Shown one piece after another: positions 4,400-35,956 of a DNA stretch of 44,875 nucleotides. Source of the DNA: a virus. The translations under genes and the position numbers were made by a program. The notes under the pieces were generated by a model. It did not search any database. It was not told the origin of the DNA and was given only the letters and a program-made list of their open reading frames with translations. Each line of letters opens with the position of its first letter. Positions within the stretch are counted from its first letter, which is position 1. The stretch is from IMG/VR virus record IMGVR_UViG_3300017773_000025, positions 1 through 44,875 of that record; one strand, given 5' to 3'.

Positions 4400-4684
4400 T
4401 CAGACTATTTTGACATTTTTATCTATTATTGCAGTAATATCACGTTCTCTTATACTCAAAACTTTTTCTCCATTATATTTAAATTCGCTACCAGCTAAAT
4501 CATGGAAAAGAACCTTTATGCCTATTTGAAAATCTTTGTCTTTAACACCATCACCTACACCTATTATAGTTCCGGAGTATGGTGGTGCAAATTGACCTTC
4601 TTTCTTTATTAAAATAATGTTACCTTTCTTCTCTGGTTGTTCATCTTTATTTAAGAATATTCTATTTCCTAAAGGTTTTATCAT
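4400..4684 (-). CDS. GroES-like co-chaperonin (functional analogue of T4 gp31)
   Basis: A 94-residue Cpn10-family protein. It starts MIKPLGNRIFLNKDE, the usual GroES opening, followed by a putative mobile loop (KKGNIILIKKEGQFAPPYSG), then GTIIGVGDGVKD, GIKVLFHDLAGSEFKYNGEK and a final RERDITAIID. Each block lines up with the canonical GroES pattern (P-L-x-x-R; G-x-V-x-x-V-G-x-G; G-x-x-V-x-F; L-x-x-R-E-x-D-I-x-A-V). It would cap the host GroEL to help fold a phage protein, usually the major capsid protein. It has 85 nt of AT-rich DNA before it and is followed by the gp32 leader. It looks closer to cellular GroES than to the divergent T4 gp31. Confidence 0.85.
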   Translation of the reverse strand: MIKPLGNRIFLNKDEQPEKKGNIILIKKEGQFAPPYSGTIIGVGDGVKDKDFQIGIKVLFHDLAGSEFKYNGEKVLSIRERDITAIIDKNVKIV

Positions 4685-9743: not shown

Positions 9744-10172
9744 TTAAAGTCCTCCTTTGTTATGTACTAATATTTCATTTGCATAATAGTTATGACCACC
9801 ACTAACATTTGTTACATTATAAACTTTAAACATTCCTTGTTCTTCTTTCGTGGATACTACCTTAGCTTTTTCTCCGTTTAATTGATATACTTCAAAACCT
9901 TCTTTTAATTCAGCAGCATCAATTAAACCTACATTTTCACCGTCTATATGATAGAATGGGTGATGTTCAGTTGCCTTAATAGTAGATCCGTTGTCAAAGG
10001 TTAATACAATAACCATACCTACTTCTTCAATTACATCTAACCCACCTACGGTACCAACTCCTGGTGTTTTTGTGTTTTCATTCCATGTTATTACTTCTTC
10101 ACCTGGAATAATATCTTCAATATTTTTTGTATCTCCATTTGCTAAAGATATTTCAGTCCCGGCTACAAAACA
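9744..10172 (-). other. Hint domain (bacterial intein-like) at fibre C-terminus
   Basis: Residues 850-991 of the 991-aa fibre. Block A begins at C850 (CFVAGTEISLANGDTKNIED, 850-869). Block B is T917-E-H-H920 followed by P. The end is ANEILVHNKGGL with H986-N987. These are the residues needed for the N-S acyl shift and Asn cyclisation. The residue after Asn is Lys, not Cys/Ser/Thr, and only four residues follow, so ordinary protein splicing is not expected. Self-cleavage or transfer to a nucleophile is more likely. Confidence 0.85.
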
Positions 10173-12719
10173 TCCTGGTGAATTATCATAACCACTAATT
10201 GTTACTAAACCATTATTAGTAGAATTTATGGAAATTCCACATATACCCCAACCATGCTGTGTCTGTGTTGTGAAAGCGTCATCTTCGCCCAAATTAGCAT
10301 TTGCACCAGTTTGTGTTACGTATTGCCCGTCCCATATACAATCAATCATTTTATATCTACCAACACCATTACCTGCATCAGTACTATCTGTTGAAACAGT
10401 TACTACCTGATAACTAGGCTTTAATGCTAGATTAGGACTGAATGGTCCCCACCAAGAAGTCCAGTTTCCAGTTGATTTAGGAGACTTAATTCTATATTGT
10501 GGTATTCTTAAGTCAACTGAACCATATTGAGCTCTCGATACACCCGGTCCACTTTTTTGAGGAACATCTACCTGAAGAGCTTGGACATACAGCTTAATCA
10601 TTAATCTTTGACCAGGATATGCACCAATAGGAAAAGCAACCTTATAATCAAAATTAATATTGTTACCATTATTAAAAGAAGCCCCAGGTTCAGTATAACC
10701 TAACCCCGGCCCAAAGTTAAGAGAAATAAATGGAACTGTTAGTTCTTCAGTTTGTGGCATACCTGATGAAGGGAAATTATTATAGTATTGCGGTGTTAGG
10801 TCTTGTCTCGTATTCCAGCCATAATTTAATGGAGCAGGAGCCGTTGAAGAAGTACTTACAGTAGTAGTAGGAGCAGAGTTAATAGATGAATTTCTACCAG
10901 TTGCTCTTTTTAATACCCACGGTGTTGCAAATGCAATTTTATTTTTACTTGCAGTAAAGTATTCATTATTATTACCACTGTCTCTTACTGAAAATCCTAA
11001 TGTGTTATCCCACGCAAAATTAGCTGCCGGTACTGGATTCCCTGGACCTTCACTTCCCATTGTTATTGCCAATAAACCTGCATCTAAACCAGTAGTTGCT
11101 TGAGTTCCACCAGTCCATGCTTGTAACATTGCACCTGGAGAATAATCAGTAACTCCATTATTTCCAGTTAATTCATATATAGCTGTTGCTGTTGTTGCTT
11201 GGCCTGTAGGATTTTTGTATATTAAATTACCAAATGACGATGGTGGAAACGTTCCACTTTGGCCTTCACCAGCTATAGTTTGTCTTCCTACAAATCTTGT
11301 ATGAGGTTGCGCACCTGCACTTCCATCATATCCATAATCTATAACTATACTACAAGCATTTAGTGCAGCGGGAGATGCAAGAGTAGTTTCTTTCCTTAAA
11401 ATTATTTGACTATTCCCCATTATATAAATATCTCCACCTACGGTAGAATTGGGTGCAGTTGAATTATTAATAAGCCTAATATCACCAGTAGCAGTAACAC
11501 TGCCATCGGATTGTGTAATGTCAATATTACCATTTAGGGCTGAAGCAATGATTCCTCCAGATGCTGAAGTTAATTGAATTGCACCTCCCGTAGAAGATCC
11601 TAGTGTAGTATCTAACTTTAATTGACCAGCTGAATTTAATTGTATATTTTGATTTGCAGATGTTGTAACATTAAATAAACCTGATCTAAACTGAGTAACA
11701 CCTACTTGTGAATTTTGCTCTGTTACTACTGGAAATCCTGCTCCTGTTTCAAATAAAGTGGCTCCTGAAGTACCAGCTGTAGTTAAACTAAATTTATTAC
11801 CTGGTGGATTAGATCCTGTTCCAACATTAATACTAAAGTCAGAATTCTCACCACTAAAATCTTCGTTGGATCTTTGCCCAGTTTGGAATGTTATTGCTTT
11901 ACCTGCGGAAAAACTTTGTGACCTAGCCGGAACAGAAACTTCAAATCCGACTAATTCATCTACAGTGGTCGGGGTAGTAGCTACTTTAGGTGCACTTAAT
12001 ATTAATCTATCATCTACACCAATAGTGATATTACATAAAGAAGAAAGATTTGCCTGTTGATAGTTATCATTTAAATTTGCTGCACCTCCATGAAATACTA
12101 TAGACTTAGCAGCGGAGTCTTTCTGGTGAATTAATAATGATGCGGTACTAGATATCATTTTATCAGCGACTGCATCTGGTATAATATAAGCATTAGTTAA
12201 TGGAATAGAACCTAATGGGATAGTTGTAGATACTGCACCACCTATCATAACTGAAGGTACACCTTCATTTCCAGATGTTGCACCAGTACCTTCTCCTATA
12301 GGTCCATTATAAATAGCAGTTTGTAATCCTATAGTAGGTGAACCAAAAGTATCTCCCATACCACCACCTACTCCTTGTGGTCCTTGTGGTCCTTCTAAAT
12401 CTATAGTTGTTATAACCCAAGTCGTTCCGTTGTATTCCCAAACTTGACCGTTAAATTGTAAATAGTAATCTCCTTCTAATGGAGTACTTGTTGGATATGT
12501 TGATGTAGGATTAGCACCTGGTGCTGAAGAAGAAGTATCTTCATACCATCTTGTACCTTTAGGTCCTCTACCTCCAGCTGGACCAACAGGTCCTGAGGGG
12601 CCAATAGGGCCTGCGGGACCACCACCATTAAGTAACAATTGGTCAAAATTAAAATTTGTTTTATCGACCAGCTGTGAAATAGTATCTGATGCTATTATTT
12701 CTTGTATAGTGATTGGCAT
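9744..12719 (-). CDS. Collagen-like fibre protein with C-terminal Hint (intein-like) domain
   Basis: A 991-residue putative tail fibre. Parts in order: an N-terminal attachment segment (1-30, MPITIQEIIASDTISQLVDK), a short collagen-like run (32-56, GPAGPIGPSGPVGPAG), a Gly/Ser/Thr/Asn-rich beta-structured shaft (about 60-600), a globular region (about 600-849), and a Hint domain (850-991). The first 35 residues resemble the start of the 214-aa protein at 23621-24265, which suggests a shared attachment site. A probable role is receptor binding or tail decoration. The Hint domain could release the C-terminus or couple it to another protein. The gene is preceded by an A-rich leader (AATAGAAAAGAA) and follows the 1595-aa gene by 10 nt. 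Confidence 0.72.
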   Translation of the reverse strand: MPITIQEIIASDTISQLVDKTNFNFDQLLLNGGGPAGPIGPSGPVGPAGGRGPKGTRWYEDTSSSAPGANPTSTYPTSTPLEGDYYLQFNGQVWEYNGTTWVITTIDLEGPQGPQGVGGGMGDTFGSPTIGLQTAIYNGPIGEGTGATSGNEGVPSVMIGGAVSTTIPLGSIPLTNAYIIPDAVADKMISSTASLLIHQKDSAAKSIVFHGGAANLNDNYQQANLSSLCNITIGVDDRLILSAPKVATTPTTVDELVGFEVSVPARSQSFSAGKAITFQTGQRSNEDFSGENSDFSINVGTGSNPPGNKFSLTTAGTSGATLFETGAGFPVVTEQNSQVGVTQFRSGLFNVTTSANQNIQLNSAGQLKLDTTLGSSTGGAIQLTSASGGIIASALNGNIDITQSDGSVTATGDIRLINNSTAPNSTVGGDIYIMGNSQIILRKETTLASPAALNACSIVIDYGYDGSAGAQPHTRFVGRQTIAGEGQSGTFPPSSFGNLIYKNPTGQATTATAIYELTGNNGVTDYSPGAMLQAWTGGTQATTGLDAGLLAITMGSEGPGNPVPAANFAWDNTLGFSVRDSGNNNEYFTASKNKIAFATPWVLKRATGRNSSINSAPTTTVSTSSTAPAPLNYGWNTRQDLTPQYYNNFPSSGMPQTEELTVPFISLNFGPGLGYTEPGASFNNGNNINFDYKVAFPIGAYPGQRLMIKLYVQALQVDVPQKSGPGVSRAQYGSVDLRIPQYRIKSPKSTGNWTSWWGPFSPNLALKPSYQVVTVSTDSTDAGNGVGRYKMIDCIWDGQYVTQTGANANLGEDDAFTTQTQHGWGICGISINSTNNGLVTISGYDNSPGCFVAGTEISLANGDTKNIEDIIPGEEVITWNENTKTPGVGTVGGLDVIEEVGMVIVLTFDNGSTIKATEHHPFYHIDGENVGLIDAAELKEGFEVYQLNGEKAKVVSTKEEQGMFKVYNVTNVSGGHNYYANEILVHNKGGL

Positions 12720-28669: not shown

Positions 28670-30526
28670 TTATTCTCCTTTTAGTGCTTTAAGCGTTGGT
28701 GTATTTTGTAACCTACCGGTATTTAAACCTGCAGAGTTTGCACCAGTCGCAATTGTAGTACCTCTATTTCTTTTAGTTTGGTTATACTTTTCTTGTTGTA
28801 TTTTATTATAAAGATTATTAGCTATTGCTTCTTTATAGAATACATTAAGAGAACCTATTTTATTTGCATCTGGGATAGGCTCATAGAAAGTTCCATTTCT
28901 ATCTTTCCATCCACCTCTTATGATTGCTATGTCATTGTTTTCAATAATAATATCTCCAAAACTATCTAATCCTAAATTAGGATCTTCACCTTTCTTTAAA
29001 ACTATTTTCTTATTCTCTATTAATGCTCTTTGGTCAGTCACAGGATCTGTTCCATAAACAGGAACAAAATAAAAACCATCTCTGATTGCTTTTTCATTTT
29101 CTTCAGAGATAAAGAATACATTTACAGAATCAATTCCTTCAACATTTTCAATTATAGAAATAATATCAGATCGTGGAATTCTATCTCTTCTATTTACATT
29201 TAAGAAATACTCATCTAGATTTTTTCTTATTTCAATTCTTATAGCATCCTTATCATAATTTTCAAACCACCTTACTACAACATTAAGAGCATACTTTTTA
29301 ATTACAGGATCTACGATTCTAGTTTCTGCCGTAACTACTTGTCTTCCACTCTTATTTAAAATTTCATAAGTCATTTCTTTTTCCTGTGTGGTCATAGTAA
29401 ATTCTACCTCAGGTACACTAAAGTAATCTAAATCACTAGTTAATTTTTTCTTTACATCTGGAACTAAGAATAGGTAAATAATATTGTCATCATCCAAATA
29501 TTCATCATTCTTAGTATTATAAGCATCTATGAAAGACCAAAAGTCATACTTACTTAGATAGTAAATATAATTATTAGGATTTGCTAATACAAAAGAATTA
29601 CTTTGGTACGGCGCAATTAATCTTGTAAAATTAGGATCTTCAGAATCAGACCCAAACATTGGGTTTCTTGTAATGTTCATTGAAAGAATTTCATTTAAAT
29701 CAACCTGCTCACCTGAAGAATCTGTCCCAGGGTCTGAAAATTTAATATCTAATTGTTTACCTCCAATATTACCAGCCACTCCTCTAGTCTTTACATAAGT
29801 TATTCTAATTCTTGAACCTAATGCAGGTGGTTGCCCAAATTGATTATTTCCAAAGAAAACACTTAGCCCTCCATTAACACTAGTTTTAATCATAGCTGCT
29901 TCTTCACCATTGTTCATATCATATATTGAATCAACTAACTTCCATTTTTTACCATCAACAAAACATTCCACTAAATATTGATCTGTAGGTTCTTTCGTAG
30001 ATAAGTTATAACTTTGTAATGGATTACCAGATCCTGTAAATGATTGCTCATCTTTTTCACCTTGGATAATTTCAACATTAACAAATTGTTTATTACTTTT
30101 ATCTAATCTAATAAAATCACTATTAAATCTTAAAAAATAAGTTAAACTATTTTGTCCTATTTCAAAAGATGAACCATTCATAATCTGAACATAGTCACCA
30201 TTAAGAAGGCTAGATGCACTTGTATTTAATCTTAATCCAATTATACCTCTTGCAGATATACCTCTTGTAGGATCATGCCCTGTTAATCTAGATAAACCGT
30301 AAATAGATTCAATATTTCTTGCTCTTGAAATATTCATTTCAGTTGCAACTGCTTCTATATAAAAGAAAATCATTTCACCTAAGTTAGAAACCACAGTTAA
30401 AATTTGACCGAATGGTGAAGCAGGAGTAAATACTTCTACTGCTTGGTCATAAGTCCTCTGGAGATATTCAAATGAATCCTCAAATAACTCTGTAGCCTTT
30501 AATCTTGTTTTACTAAAAAATGACAT
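28670..30526 (-). CDS. 6: Baseplate wedge protein gp6-like (baseplate J family)
   Basis: A 618-residue protein of the gp6/baseplate-J type; T4 gp6 has 660. The helical N-terminus (SFEYLQRTYDQAVEVFTPAS) is followed by a FFYIEAVATEMNISRARNIE helix and the SIYGLSRLTGHDPTRG turn typical of the family. In the C-terminal third, KKYALNVVVRWFENYDKDAI, then IRKNLDEYFLNVNRRDRIPRS and IIENVEGIDSVNVFF, form the usual beta-alpha-beta J core. It dimerises in the wedge and triggers the baseplate shape change. It lies 13 nt after gp25, as in many contractile tail systems. The Lys/Asn-rich C-terminal tail (about 575-618) is probably disordered. Confidence 0.85.
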   Translation of the reverse strand: MSFFSKTRLKATELFEDSFEYLQRTYDQAVEVFTPASPFGQILTVVSNLGEMIFFYIEAVATEMNISRARNIESIYGLSRLTGHDPTRGISARGIIGLRLNTSASSLLNGDYVQIMNGSSFEIGQNSLTYFLRFNSDFIRLDKSNKQFVNVEIIQGEKDEQSFTGSGNPLQSYNLSTKEPTDQYLVECFVDGKKWKLVDSIYDMNNGEEAAMIKTSVNGGLSVFFGNNQFGQPPALGSRIRITYVKTRGVAGNIGGKQLDIKFSDPGTDSSGEQVDLNEILSMNITRNPMFGSDSEDPNFTRLIAPYQSNSFVLANPNNYIYYLSKYDFWSFIDAYNTKNDEYLDDDNIIYLFLVPDVKKKLTSDLDYFSVPEVEFTMTTQEKEMTYEILNKSGRQVVTAETRIVDPVIKKYALNVVVRWFENYDKDAIRIEIRKNLDEYFLNVNRRDRIPRSDIISIIENVEGIDSVNVFFISEENEKAIRDGFYFVPVYGTDPVTDQRALIENKKIVLKKGEDPNLGLDSFGDIIIENNDIAIIRGGWKDRNGTFYEPIPDANKIGSLNVFYKEAIANNLYNKIQQEKYNQTKRNRGTTIATGANSAGLNTGRLQNTPTLKALKGE

Positions 30527-30539
30527 TTACTTTATTATT

Positions 30540-30902
30540 TTAAAAAAGAGCACCAATGACTCTTTGTTCATTTACGAAAATATCAACTAAACAACCATCT
30601 CTTCCCTCAGTAGAAAAGAAACTTACTTTAGTGTCAACATCAAATCCTGCTAAGTCTGGTAAACAGTAAGCAGTAATCTGGCCGTTGACAGCATTCTCTA
30701 TTGTATTCTCATTTAACACTAATGAAAATATTAATTCATCTAAATTAGCACCCATATTAGAAGCTCCTAAAACATCACCTTTTCTAGTAAAAAGACAATT
30801 TTCTATTTTTATTATAAGCTGAGATAACTTATCACTCACCTCCAATGTAGCATCATTAAATTTTGGAGCGGCAGCATCTCTACTATAAATATCTTTAATC
30901 AT
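30540..30902 (-). CDS. 25: Baseplate wedge protein gp25-like
   Basis: A 120-residue member of the gpW/gp25 family; T4 gp25 has 132. Pattern: an N-terminal helix with DKLSQLIIKIENCLFTRKGDV, a GASNMGANLDELIFSLV motif matching the P-x-F-G-x-x-L-x-x-x-L-F core, and a C-terminal beta pair (VSFFSTEGRDGCLVDIFVNE). It joins the inner baseplate to the first sheath disc and is needed for sheath assembly. It has its own promoter-like motif (30921-30932) and a 60-nt upstream gap, and leads into gp6. Confidence 0.82.
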   Translation of the reverse strand: MIKDIYSRDAAAPKFNDATLEVSDKLSQLIIKIENCLFTRKGDVLGASNMGANLDELIFSLVLNENTIENAVNGQITAYCLPDLAGFDVDTKVSFFSTEGRDGCLVDIFVNEQRVIGALF

Positions 30903-30920: not shown

Positions 30921-30932
30921 TATTATATATTC
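30921..30932 (-). promoter_or_regulatory. Promoter-like motif AATATATAATA before gp25
   Basis: It reads GAATATATAATAAAAAA on the minus strand, 18 nt before the gp25 ATG, inside a 60-nt gap. It matches the recurrent motif of this window and probably drives the gp25-gp6-gp7-type wedge operon. Confidence 0.5.
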
Positions 30933-31832: not shown

Positions 31833-33125
31833 TTATATTTTTTCTATTTCAATTATTTCCGTATTTTCAAACCTAGCCATTTTAGTAGCTCTACCTTTTC
31901 TAAAAATACCACCTTCCATTTCTCCACTAAATACTCCTTTAGGTCCAAAGACATATGAATCTTTACATATTACATTTTTACTAACATAAGAATCTTCTAT
32001 CTTACAATCAGCTGCATCAGTTGCACCAAATAAGTTACTTTCAAATAAAGATGAATTTACTAACTCTGAGCTAAAGATATCACAATTTAAAATGTTACCT
32101 TGAATTTTACAGTCTACAATATCAACTCCTTTTATTTCAAAACATCTCATTAGTTCTGCATTCTTTAATTGCATTCTACCAGTATCAGCATCATAGTTAA
32201 TCAAACCTTCTTTTAAACCAGCTAAAGTTAAAAGCTTAAAAAGCTCTTCTCTCATTTTAGGATAAAATGTTTCTACAATTTGATCATATGTTTTAAGATC
32301 AACCATTAATCTTATCTTTGGAAATTTTTTCTTAAATGCTTGGTAGTCTTTATAAGATTCAACTATACCACTGTGCTTTTCTAAAACAACATCTAATTGT
32401 TTAAGATCTGCATCGGTATATTGAGGATACATTAAAGTTTCATATAATGATACAACAAAATGTTCTGTTAAATTCATTATTGTATTATACTTCTTCTCAT
32501 AATCTTTTCCACCAAGATATCTAAATTCAATATAATTCTTAGGTAACTTAGAAAAGTTTACACCATAATACTTTTCAGATACAAACATATAATTTTTCCA
32601 TGAAATTCTTTCAGGAGATGGTTGAGTCATTCCACTTAAAGGAACAATAAATTTTATTGACTTAGCATAAACAGAATCTTTTCTATTAGGAAATGCTTCA
32701 TATATTTTATTCTCATCAAAATTTAATACAAATTTACCAATATCTAAATTTGATATATTTGTAGGAACTCCTAATTTCTTTCCATCAAAAGCTACGTTAA
32801 CATGAATAGAACATCTTTCATTAGTAGATCCATTTTCACGAATCCATTTTAATGTTTTAGCAATAATAAGTTTTGATTCAACGAAAGGCATTGGCCCGGT
32901 GACTAATTCTATCATACCGGTTCCACCTGAATTATCAGGCTCTAATTTGAATGTTTCATCACTAGGAGTAAAATCACTATGAGCCTTTTCCTCTATTTGT
33001 ATTCTTTTATTTAAAGCATTAGAAAGGCTTCTTTTAACCTCATCTAATCCTTCATTAGCAAAGAATTCAAATTCTAATCCAATCTTGGATGCATATATAG
33101 CATTTAATTGTTCGTTGGTGTACAT
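31833..33125 (-). CDS. Amidoligase-fold protein with C-terminal beta-helix
   Basis: A 430-residue protein whose first ~215 residues fit the glutamine synthetase-like amidoligase family (Amidoligase_2 type). Motifs: KIGLEFEF (E18, E20), KLEPDNSGG (E62, D64), MIELVTGPMPF (E73), CSIHVNVAF (H108) and NYIEFRYLGG (E200, R202). This family forms amide bonds using ATP, for example by attaching amino acids or amines to peptides. A helical linker (about 215-320) leads to a repeat region (326-420) with pentapeptide-like, right-handed beta-helix periodicity (CKIQGNILNCDIFSSELVNS). It sits between the S1-like gene and tail genes with its own promoter motif, and it is co-transcribed with the 287-aa structural gene. 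The substrate is unknown; a virion or cell-wall peptide is possible. Confidence 0.78.
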   Translation of the reverse strand: MYTNEQLNAIYASKIGLEFEFFANEGLDEVKRSLSNALNKRIQIEEKAHSDFTPSDETFKLEPDNSGGTGMIELVTGPMPFVESKLIIAKTLKWIRENGSTNERCSIHVNVAFDGKKLGVPTNISNLDIGKFVLNFDENKIYEAFPNRKDSVYAKSIKFIVPLSGMTQPSPERISWKNYMFVSEKYYGVNFSKLPKNYIEFRYLGGKDYEKKYNTIMNLTEHFVVSLYETLMYPQYTDADLKQLDVVLEKHSGIVESYKDYQAFKKKFPKIRLMVDLKTYDQIVETFYPKMREELFKLLTLAGLKEGLINYDADTGRMQLKNAELMRCFEIKGVDIVDCKIQGNILNCDIFSSELVNSSLFESNLFGATDAADCKIEDSYVSKNVICKDSYVFGPKGVFSGEMEGGIFRKGRATKMARFENTEIIEIEKI

Positions 33126-33165: not shown

Positions 33166-34308
33166 TTATGCTATGTTCATTGTAATCTTACGATCACTAA
33201 CATTCACACTACCAATTTTTACATTTATTGTATCACCTTTAGATAATTCAGCACCCTTTAGTTTTGATTTATGAATTAATCCACTGATTCCTTTTTCTAA
33301 TTCTACAAATGCACCGTATGAAGTTATTTTAGTTACCTTACCTTCAGTAATCATCATAGGTTTATATTTCTCATCAACACCATCCCATAAATCAATCTTA
33401 GGTCCTAATTGGCTTAATATAATTTTTCTATCCGATATAACTTCTTTAGCCCAGAATCTAATAGGGTCTCCTGGTTTAATACTTCTATCATCTAATGCTT
33501 TTTGGAATTCTTCACTTAATTCAGCTTTAGGAATTAATCCTGTTAAGCATTCATCAAATTCTGCAAATACACCAAACTTAGTTGTACCTGTTACAAAACC
33601 AGCTCTTTCTTCTTTTATTGTTTCATTTAACTTATCAATAGTAGAAGGAATCATTGTTCTTAAATATTCTCTATGAGATACTACAACCGTATCCTTTTCC
33701 CTAGAGAATGTTATTGGCATAACTATTATTTCTTTACCTACTAATACATTAAAATCATGTAATTTATTTAACCCTCCTAATGAACCTGGCATAAAGCATT
33801 TAATTCCTGCAACATCTACCCAATATCCACCATGAATTAATTCCTTAACTTTTGCAGTGAATCCTATAGTAGAATTTCCAATTGCATCTTTTATTTCTTT
33901 TAGCTTAACCTCTTGTATAGCATCGGATATCGAAGCCATAACATCACCGTTCTTTTTATTAGTTTTAATCTTAACATCAATTTCCATACCTACTTCCAAT
34001 TGTTCTACAATATAATCAGGTTCTTTAGTTAAAGTACAATAGGCTGTATATTTAGATTCAATATCAATGAGAGCTCTTTCTCTATCTTTGGATATGAAAG
34101 AAACCTCCCCTCTCGTGGTATATGCCACGTTGTCTTCTATAAGTTGTGTTTTCTTTGCTTGGGGATCTGTTAGTCCATACATTGATAAGGCATCAGCAGC
34201 ATATGCTTCATTACACATTAATTTTGTACCTTCAGGAACTTGGACTTTTACTTTCTTAGTATCAAATGGATCATCACTTAATTGAATTGTGATTTCTTGT
34301 TCAGTCAT
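33166..34308 (-). CDS. Ribosomal protein S1-like protein with four S1 domains
   Basis: A 380-residue RNA-binding protein built of four OB-fold S1 repeats: about 66-130, 147-212, 234-300 and 320-378. The second resembles repeat 2 of bacterial S1 (GFTAKVKELIHGGYWVDVAG, then CFMPGSLGGL and DTVVVSHREYL, compared with F-L-P-G-S-L and V-V-V-S-R-R in S1). The fourth is a classical S1 motif (EGKVTKITSYGAFVELEKGI, then SGLIHKSKL and DRKITMNIA). Cellular S1 has six repeats and binds mRNA at the ribosome, so this is a shortened version with an extra N-terminal segment (1-60). It could steer host ribosomes to phage A-rich leaders, or act on mRNA stability. It has its own promoter motif and is flanked by tail genes. 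Confidence 0.82.
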   Translation of the reverse strand: MTEQEITIQLSDDPFDTKKVKVQVPEGTKLMCNEAYAADALSMYGLTDPQAKKTQLIEDNVAYTTRGEVSFISKDRERALIDIESKYTAYCTLTKEPDYIVEQLEVGMEIDVKIKTNKKNGDVMASISDAIQEVKLKEIKDAIGNSTIGFTAKVKELIHGGYWVDVAGIKCFMPGSLGGLNKLHDFNVLVGKEIIVMPITFSREKDTVVVSHREYLRTMIPSTIDKLNETIKEERAGFVTGTTKFGVFAEFDECLTGLIPKAELSEEFQKALDDRSIKPGDPIRFWAKEVISDRKIILSQLGPKIDLWDGVDEKYKPMMITEGKVTKITSYGAFVELEKGISGLIHKSKLKGAELSKGDTINVKIGSVNVSDRKITMNIA

Positions 34309-34336
34309 TTTTTGTTTTTTATGAGGTTAGTATCTG

Positions 34337-34348
34337 TATTATATATTA
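34337..34348 (-). promoter_or_regulatory. Promoter-like motif TAATATATAATA before the S1-like gene
   Basis: It reads TAATATATAATACAG on the minus strand, 28 nt before the ATG at 34308, within a 98-nt gap after the 210-aa gene. The leader that follows is A-rich (CATAAAAAACAAAAA directly before ATG) and has no Shine-Dalgarno sequence. Confidence 0.5.
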
Positions 34349-34406: not shown

Positions 34407-35039
34407 TTAGGATAAACCTACCCAAGGAAAAGCAAACGGTGGAGGAGGGGTACCAGCAGCAGCTAAACCTGACCATAAACCACTAACTAATTTTAAATGA
34501 GCAACAAAAGCTTTATCTAAAGCAGTGCCCAGCGCAGGACCATTATATAATTTAAAAGCAGCAGAAATATCCTTTGTAAGTTGAGCATCAACAGATATAA
34601 ATCCTGTTTGATTATCTATAGAATAACCAGGAAATAAAATATCATTTGATATACCTGCACTTCCTCCTGGTGCTGGTGGCGCAGGTAGCATAGATCCACC
34701 TCCCCAATATTTAACCACAGCTGTTGCAGCATCTAACCATACTTCATCAGGTACTTGCATTCCCCATTCAGTAGGAGAATCACCAGGTGCCCATGTAACT
34801 ACATCATCCATATAAGTCTGAATTTTTTCAAATGATTTTTCAAAACCTTCTTGTATATCTAAAGCAGTACCTACAGAAAGTGGAAATGAACCGAATGATG
34901 TTTGTGCCGCAACGGCTGCTAGTACATAGTCTTTACCAATTTCTTGTGCTATTGGTTTAAATGAATATGGCTCTGTGCCAGTACTACTAACTAACCAAGC
35001 AGGAAACTTTAATCTAAATGGTGCAGGAATCCAAGGCAT
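34407..35039 (-). CDS. Baseplate-associated protein of unknown function (210 aa)
   Basis: A 210-residue protein rich in Ala, Pro, Gly and Trp (MPWIPAPFRLKFPAWLVSS at the start; GTPPPPFAFPWVGLS at the end) with a Gly/Pro linker near 115-128 (GGGSMLPAPPAPGGSAG). It overlaps the gp5-like stop by one base (TAATG), so it is coupled to the needle protein and may be a tip, hub or chaperone component. Similar proteins follow gp5-like genes in some T4-like phages, but I recognise no named family. Confidence 0.5.
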   Translation of the reverse strand: MPWIPAPFRLKFPAWLVSSTGTEPYSFKPIAQEIGKDYVLAAVAAQTSFGSFPLSVGTALDIQEGFEKSFEKIQTYMDDVVTWAPGDSPTEWGMQVPDEVWLDAATAVVKYWGGGSMLPAPPAPGGSAGISNDILFPGYSIDNQTGFISVDAQLTKDISAAFKLYNGPALGTALDKAFVAHLKLVSGLWSGLAAAGTPPPPFAFPWVGLS

Positions 35040-35956
35040 TAGTCAGTGGTATTTTTCTGGCTTAAATATGAACTATTTTTAAAAGGAGGTAATGGTGTAC
35101 CAGTTACTCCACCTGGGGCAGGGTGAATATGTGCATCAAATAAACTTTTCCAAGTATCACCTTTAACTACAGATTCAGCTGCTGCTTCACCTAATTTAAT
35201 CCTTGGTGAATTAACATGTGTTTCTCCACTTGCAGTAATAACAGCATCAACACAATTAATCAGACAATTAGTATCTGCATTAATTACGGTATCAGCTCCA
35301 CTATTAATTGTAAATTGAGCAGAGTGAGTAAATGTTATATTTCCATCATTAAGCATTACCATAGAATCTCCATTAGCATTAATGATATGAACTGAATTAT
35401 CAGGCTTTACATTAACTGTAGTTGGACCTTCAGTTGTAGTATAGTCCATCATTAATCCTTTTTCTTCTGTAAAGAAAACTTTAATATGTTCACCTTCTCT
35501 TTCATTTGTTACTTCAGATACTCCATCTTGTAATTCTCCAGTTAAACCAAATGCAGTATCATAAATTAATACATGAGAATTTTGGTATGATGGTTCTACT
35601 TCAGCTTTTGTTTCATCTGAAGGATAAATGTTTTCATGATAAACAGGTTGATAAAAATTTCCATTGTCAAATGTTAATCTAACAATAGAACCTAATTTAG
35701 GAATTTCAAATTTACCACTTCCTGTATTACTACCTCCATACATTAGCTGATGTGGTCTTGACCAAGGTAAAGCAGCAGTTGGAATTTTAAATGCACTTTG
35801 TGGATCTTCAGGATCTACACGATCATCCATTTTACCATATACTCTAATCTTACAACGACCTTCAAATATATCATCATTAGTATCTTCTACGATTCCTACC
35901 CACTGAGTAGTTCGTAAATCATCAGCGTTAAAATTTTTTGGATCAACCTTTCCCAT
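35039..35956 (-). CDS. 5: gp5/gpV-like baseplate hub and needle protein, no lysozyme
   Basis: A 305-residue tail spike of the gp5/gpV type. An N-terminal OB fold (about 15-120) shows QWVGIVEDTNDDIFEGRCKI, RVYGKMDD, LPWSRPHQLMYGG and KLGSIVRLTFDNGNFYQP. It is followed by a beta-strand repeat forming a triple-stranded needle (about 150-265, for example DNSVHIINANGDSMVMLNDG and GADTVINADTNCLINC) and a tip-like end (DAHIHPAPGGVTGTPLPPF) resembling gpV-type C-termini. T4 gp5 has a lysozyme domain between OB fold and needle; here there is none. It would pierce the outer membrane at the tail centre. One-base overlaps link it to both neighbours. Confidence 0.85.
   Translation of the reverse strand: MGKVDPKNFNADDLRTTQWVGIVEDTNDDIFEGRCKIRVYGKMDDRVDPEDPQSAFKIPTAALPWSRPHQLMYGGSNTGSGKFEIPKLGSIVRLTFDNGNFYQPVYHENIYPSDETKAEVEPSYQNSHVLIYDTAFGLTGELQDGVSEVTNEREGEHIKVFFTEEKGLMMDYTTTEGPTTVNVKPDNSVHIINANGDSMVMLNDGNITFTHSAQFTINSGADTVINADTNCLINCVDAVITASGETHVNSPRIKLGEAAAESVVKGDTWKSLFDAHIHPAPGGVTGTPLPPFKNSSYLSQKNTTD

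Follow-up and report, generated by a model that had tools for sequence, protein, structure and literature searches.

A viral homologue of ribosomal protein bS1 in the tail gene block of marine T4-like phages

The viral contig IMGVR_UViG_3300017773_000025 (44,875 nucleotides, analysed at full length and hereafter called the window) contains, among its tail genes, an open reading frame for a protein of 380 amino acids with S1 repeats, raising the questions of whether the product is truly a ribosomal protein and what a phage would do with it. A preliminary description had placed the gene at 33166–34308, coordinates that stand, and its strand is here corrected to minus; the same strand applies to all parts of the gene described below. 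The protein consists of bS1 domains 1–4 preceded by a phage-specific N-terminal extension.

Domain structure and relationship to bS1

The AlphaFold2 model, built from 26 sequences (pLDDT, 81; pTM, 0.52), shows a β-hairpin and helices (residues 1–60) followed by four S1/OB domains, in agreement with the four S1 repeats originally described. The N-terminal extension (34129–34308), delimited by the secondary structure of the model and the family alignment, has a conserved β-hairpin (residues 2–9 and 17–24) and then two helices (residues 37–43 and 48–58). Domain 1 (about residues 62–126; 33931–34125) was assigned from the model, the alignment and the structural match, and is followed by domain 2 (about residues 150–215; 33664–33861), domain 3 (about residues 234–300; 33409–33609) bearing the viral signature VTGTTxFGxFxxF(D/N)ECLTG, and domain 4 (about residues 320–380; 33169–33351), exactly after which the protein terminates. 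Both motifs attributed to the second repeat are indeed located in domain 2: FMPGSL (residues 172–177; 33778–33795) is invariant and VVSHRE (residues 209–214; 33667–33684) nearly invariant among 26 aligned relatives, and the bS1-specific domain 2 motif, GG..V...G..(A/C)F(L/M)PGS together with VVS(H/R)(K/R), is present (residues 160–177 and 209–214). In the alignment, the canonical RNA-binding residues Tyr331, Phe334, and His346 of domain 4 are invariant in the family and Arg373 is present, and the net charge of this domain is +5, compared with −3 to −4 in the flavobacterial hosts (which are presumed hosts). Domain 3 retains Phe245 and Phe248, and Pro260 replaces the RNA-contacting His of bS1.

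In profile searches, the Pfam S1 model alone recognised two stretches (E, 4e-23), and the NCBIfam bS1 models matched residues 65–379 collinearly (best E, 4.7e-43), outranking the models for PNPase, RNase R, and GSP13. The bit scores are far below the equivalog cut-offs (TIGR00717, about 123 against 577; PRK00087.1, 147 against 624); some true Bacteroidota bS1s also score under the cut-off of 577 but much less far, and the protein is therefore regarded as a divergent homologue and not as a bS1 equivalog. The best phmmer match in the PDB was Escherichia coli bS1 (6bu8; E, 4e-28), and the best Foldseek matches of the model were the bS1 chains of 30S mRNA-delivery complexes (9gut_B, E, 7e-24; 9guv_B, E, 6e-21). 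Superposition with VIA-align onto 9guv_B gave a Z-score of 14.2 over 318 residues with an overall rmsd of 15, a large value that is expected if flexible linkers join the domains, and superposition onto the 30S-bound domains 1–2 (9guq_B) gave a Z-score of 11.9 and an rmsd of 3.4 over 168 residues.

The N-terminal helix of bS1 is its anchor on uS2. In the viral protein, a candidate for this helix (residues 37–44, AADALSMY; 34177–34200) was delimited from the ranges matched in 9guq_B and 9guv_B and from the alignment; the match to 9guq_B begins at bS1 residue 4, with the model aligned from residue 40 onwards. An L..(L/M)Y-type helix is conserved in the alignment with the S1 proteins of huge phages and Bacteroidota, and is clearer in LR745206 and LR756502. 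The anchor is nevertheless suggestive only, because this part of the model is of low confidence (pLDDT, about 58). Domain 1 of bS1 is known to contact uS2 (PMC6847099).

A generic S1-domain protein of the PNPase, RNase R, or Tex kind is ruled out by the Pfam, NCBIfam, Foldseek, and VIA-align results. With PNPase, RNase R, Tex, NusA, and GSP13 taken as the non-ribosomal class, the Pfam scan of the reading frame found no catalytic or other partner domain, and matches to the class were single-domain only and ranked beneath bS1 in the profile, Foldseek, and VIA-align comparisons. The earlier proposal that the gene encodes a truncated form of ribosomal S1, as opposed to some generic S1-domain protein, is thus borne out by the profiles, the structure, the collinear domains, and the tree described below, the best structural match being ribosomal bS1 and not an RNase or a Tex-like protein. 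The product is almost certainly a viral bS1 homologue.

Viral family and tail gene block

Sixty-four close loci were found in IMG/VR, and with a wider alignment at least 566 stretches encode a relative; since relatives are encoded by hundreds of viral contigs, the reading frame is far beyond chance. The S1 family is under purifying selection (omega, 0.07–0.21). Its neighbours match the gp6, gp25 (weakly), gp5, and gp53 baseplate families and a head–tail adaptor, confirming the setting in a tail gene block. All on the minus strand, the window contains a gp6-like baseplate wedge gene (28670–30526; profile match), a gp25-like baseplate wedge gene (30540–30902; weak profile match) preceded by a AATATATAAT box at 30922–30931, a conserved downstream neighbour of 430 amino acids (31833–33125), and a gp5-like baseplate hub gene (35039–35956; profile match). 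The 430-residue neighbour adjoins S1 in all 64 loci, and the gp5-like gene is the upstream neighbour in 60 of them. The gene just upstream of S1 (34407–35039) is variable, being found in 11 of the 64 loci. Among 63 contigs with the downstream neighbour, 58 have S1 and the other five start inside or just at the neighbour; that is, S1 is present in 58/58 contigs where the neighbour and enough upstream sequence exist, and is a core gene of the lineage. Contamination of the assembly with a bacterial gene is excluded by the tail-gene synteny in the 64 loci and by the presence in 58/58 contigs. As for the 430-residue neighbour itself, it has no Pfam match and is kept in huge phages too; its N-terminal half reads amidoligase-like, and the C-terminal half has the look of short repeats.

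A sister contig of 181 kb (L063/G001), whose S1 is 90% identical, is a T4-like myovirus encoding a portal, head protease, terminase, tail sheath, and topoisomerase, and also UvsX, DNA polymerase, and a sigma factor, together with a tmRNA and four tRNAs, with nearly all genes on one strand. It has a different small ORF at the variable position upstream of S1. The tmRNA (L201, G001:C1:43184-43605) has the tag DNAELAMAA and is followed by tRNA-Ala. The closest relatives of the terminase and portal of this contig are those of huge phages and of Lak phages of Prevotella, and the terminase relatives also include Tenacibaculum phages, Flavobacterium phages, and Sphingomonas phage PAU. Based on these relatives, Bacteroidota are likely hosts, and the set is one of marine T4-like phages, which probably infect Bacteroidota. 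Two further genes of the window were recognised by eye: 9744–12719 (minus strand) encodes a tail-fibre-like protein with collagen-like repeats and a C-terminal Hint-like (intein/hedgehog-type) domain (CFVAGTEISLANGDTKNIEDI ... HNYYANEILVHN), and 4400–4684 is a small GroES-like co-chaperonin gene near a gene for ssDNA-binding protein.

In the S1 tree, the window family, the huge-phage S1s, and the Lak S1s form one viral clade (support, 100/100), which does not group with cellular bS1; the branch splitting it from all bacterial bS1 has a length of 2.27 changes per site. The tree rules out recent capture from a flavobacterial host. The phylogeny with host S1 proposed in the preliminary description thus shows that the protein belongs to a viral lineage of deep divergence and is not newly copied from a host. 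The S1 of Microcystis phage PhiMa05 stands apart from this clade, among bacteria. Because the S1 tree agrees with the portal tree in the well-supported splits (the Lak row of the portal tree being a 157-residue piece only), the most likely history of S1 is one of joint transmission with the virion genes. The viral S1 shows the signatures of the clade, FMP(GS/NT)L(A/G)GxNKL and VTGTTxFGxFxxFxECLTG, and falls within its range of about 360–390 residues and three or four domains. The tail synteny around S1 is the same in the 462-kb huge phage LR756500, and in phages of 634–642 kb and 636–735 kb S1 adjoins other homologues of the tail genes of the window. In the Lak-B1 homologue (L158 7611-8720), domain 4 is missing and a charged tail forms the C-terminus; reading TAG as Gln gives no extension.

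Many phage-labelled matches (Listeria, Enterococcus, and human faecal contigs) were excluded as phage evidence since they resemble bacterial rpsA genes on contigs with a wrong label; several such records, among them OR845856, CAKLQH020000011, and OR846962, carry ordinary bacterial rpsA and themselves look like bacterial contigs. Separately, the four Bacteroidota genomes G035, G039, G055, and G071 have a second divergent multi-domain S1 of about 520–560 residues (238–273 bits).

Promoter box, A-rich leaders, and a predicted role on the ribosome

T4 late promoters have the sequence TATAAATA. A resembling box, AATATATAAT, lies 30–39 nt upstream of the S1 start codon (34338–34347, minus strand) and is probably a late-type promoter of the gene; the window has six AATATATAAT sites against a chance mean of 1.33, and the longer box has 11 copies on the coding strand and none on the other. 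The form TATATAAT occurs within 70 nt upstream of S1 in 88 of 95 family members, compared with 11 of 206 sister-contig genes. Judged from these boxes, and with a sigma factor encoded by the phage, S1 would be expressed late.

The leader of the S1 gene itself (34309–34333, minus strand) is A-rich and lacks a Shine-Dalgarno (SD) sequence, and the phage leaders are short and very A+T-rich. As first noted for the window, its genes mostly lack SD sequences: an SD 4-mer precedes 3/37 window genes and 5/212 genes of the sister contig, where shuffled leaders gave a mean of 8.6. The A-rich leaders noted at the same time are also real, with the enrichment peaking at −11 to −16 in both the window and the sister contig. 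At −11 to −15, the adenine fraction is 0.61–0.69 in the phages compared with 0.38–0.54 in marine Flavobacteriia (presumed hosts) under the same treatment, and the SD rate is about 2% in both. In Flavobacterium johnsoniae, adenines at −12/−13 aid initiation and bS1 domain 4 is placed beside mRNA positions −12 to −15 (Baez et al., PMC6847099), and bS1 raised initiation twofold on one SD-less mRNA (McNutt et al., PMC9976891); recognition of the A-rich leaders of Bacteroidota by bS1 is an open question (PMC6847099). The A-rich positions of the phage leaders coincide exactly with this putative contact site of bS1 domain 4 on the mRNA.

Of the three ribosomal protein families searched (S1, S21, and S10), bS21 accompanies S1: it is encoded in 16 of 27 tested IMG/VR contigs with S1, 20–36 kb upstream and on the same strand, and in four of six related huge and Lak phages. 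In seven of the 11 contigs without bS21 the sequence stops no more than about 21 kb upstream of S1, three reach about 26 kb upstream, and the eleventh (L224) is of the huge-phage type; the three may be cut short, because bS21 is 36 kb away from S1 in one relative. The window also stops short of the expected place of bS21. The viral bS21s keep a C-terminal K-A-[IV]-Y motif, and the hosts have KASY. No uS10 was found in ten records by a search that was positive in 14/14 controls. The link of S1 to SD-less A-rich mRNAs drawn in the preliminary description is supported by the position-specific leader data and the co-encoded bS21.

Altogether, we propose that the viral bS1 joins the host 30S subunit late in infection and favours the A-rich leaders of late phage mRNAs, a reading to which we assign a probability of roughly 0.6. 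A late-type promoter of its own within the tail operon, the box of which is present in the sequence, would drive its synthesis late in infection. Its domains 1–2, with their bS1-like fold and collinearity, would then dock on the platform of the host 30S subunit via uS2, as in bS1, and domain 4, positioned near mRNA −12 to −15, would engage the A-rich stretch, consistent with its charge and residues and with the A-enrichment of the leaders. Since bS1 exchanges easily, the viral S1, together with phage bS21 on the same platform, could finally shift host ribosomes to the SD-less A-rich phage mRNAs. A takeover of the ribosome by the phage S1 is plausible in this sense, and the low equivalog scores, the anchor pLDDT of about 58, Pro260, and the Lak homologue without domain 4 are counted against action on the ribosome. 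The gain for the phage is also not obvious, because host bS1 already serves A-rich leaders.

Part of the same evidence fits an RNA-binding protein derived from bS1 that acts off the ribosome on phage transcripts as an RNA chaperone, a protector of mRNA, or a sponge for host mRNAs or factors. The small free S1-domain regulators GSP13 and CvfD share the domain, the anchor helix is modelled at low confidence, domain 4 is lost in the Lak homologue, and whether phage S1 works on or off the ribosome was left open by Al-Shayeb et al. (PMC7162821). We consider this rather unlikely, as the full layout of domains 1–4, including the degenerate ribosome-facing domains 1–2, is kept under purifying selection, ribosome-bound bS1s are the best structural matches, and bS21 co-occurs. 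The decoy role suggested in the preliminary description, in which the protein would poison host bS1 by blocking uS2 or titrating mRNA and so shut off host translation and not boost that of the phage, found nothing in its support beyond the fact that the protein is shorter than host bS1 (domains 5–6 are missing) and might be dominant negative; Firmicutes have four-domain bS1s, and the phage mRNAs are likewise SD-less and A-rich, so that poisoning S1-dependent initiation would harm the phage. We give this reading very little credence.

The constant position in the baseplate/tail block, the late-type promoter, and the conserved phage-specific N-terminal extension, a possible dock to a structural protein, would also suit a protein that is packaged with the tail, enters with the DNA, and acts on host ribosomes at once. 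This seems improbable in view of the lack of a match to any structural-protein family and of the different flanking tail genes in several huge phages, and plain late expression fits the same setting. A role as cofactor for an RNA enzyme of the phage has a precedent in T4 RegB, which uses host S1 (PMC13157829), and the tmRNA on the 181-kb sister contig could be served in the same way; but the search of six related genomes, run without a positive control, gave no RegB family match, and a full-length tmRNA exceeded the cut-off in only one of ten records, leaving a cofactor role very doubtful. Extending the proposed action on the host 30S subunit, and quite tentatively, a long-standing line of viral S1 proteins that is passed on along with the virion genes and has viral bS21 as its partner may rebuild the mRNA-entry platform of the host 30S subunit late in infection, making initiation depend on A-rich leaders; if true, this would be a specialised ribosome made by a virus, one that follows a separate leader code in bacteria that lack SDs.

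Relation to known systems

The S1-domain protein of Virus NIOZ-UU157 (UniProt A0A7S9STL2) is 92% identical over 380 residues and plainly belongs to the same family; we found no functional or evolutionary analysis of it, and where two papers name this virus the protein is not discussed. Other phage entries of the same kind in the databases are labelled 'S1 motif' or '30S ribosomal protein S1'. Bacteroidota bS1s (for example, PDB 9zcd, of which the matched stretch recurs with 100% identity in Flavobacterium loci) resemble the viral S1 in the collinear domains 1–4, VVSHK/VVSHR, and GG..VDV.GI..F(L/M)PGS; the host proteins are about 590 residues long with more domains, whereas the viral copy ends after domain 4, differs at the N-terminus, and bears signatures found only in the viral proteins. 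The bS1 of Microcystis phage PhiMa05 (PMC13157829) is likewise phage-encoded but of separate origin, as it groups with bacterial bS1 and lies beside ispH and other ribosomal protein genes. Phage bS21 (Mizuno 2019, PMC6375957; Chen 2022, PMC9723584) is a different protein, yet it is encoded in the same phages here and is also an exchangeable 30S platform protein with late expression in phages of Bacteroidota hosts. Chen et al. associated the bS21 of phages with late replication and found no other ribosomal proteins in their curated genomes (PMC9723584), and Mizuno et al. considered S1 ambiguous and left it aside (PMC6375957). Judging from the pairing of S1 with bS21, some phages may substitute two exchangeable proteins of the 30S platform at once.

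The general concept of phage S1 and S21 with few SD sequences was already published in 2020: Al-Shayeb et al. (PMC7162821) described both S1 and S21 from huge phages, observed that carriers of rpS1 rarely have SDs, and proposed redirected initiation; they found up to six S1 domains in a few genomes, and considered a true rpS1 hard to confirm. What appears new, as far as the literature searched shows, is a defined clade of viral S1 proteins that is inherited together with the virion genes, the constant arrangement of four domains within the present lineage, a conserved promoter box belonging to the gene, a consistent pairing with bS21 outside huge phages, and the matching of domain 4 to the A-enrichment of the leaders. 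With its positive domain 4, in phages whose leaders are even richer in A at the same positions and whose close relatives make bS21, the compact viral S1 offers a tool to test the idea that bS1 recognises A-rich leaders. The rpS1-like proteins of huge phages (LR756500–LR756504 and LR745206) and Lak phages are homologous, of the same clade, and in a late-gene setting, with bS21 in four; in contrast to them, the family described here is a compact four-domain one that has a promoter box to itself and is core and syntenic in a T4-like lineage of marine and fresh waters with contigs of up to 182 kb, and through it the hard-to-classify 'rpS1' of huge phages gains a defined family.
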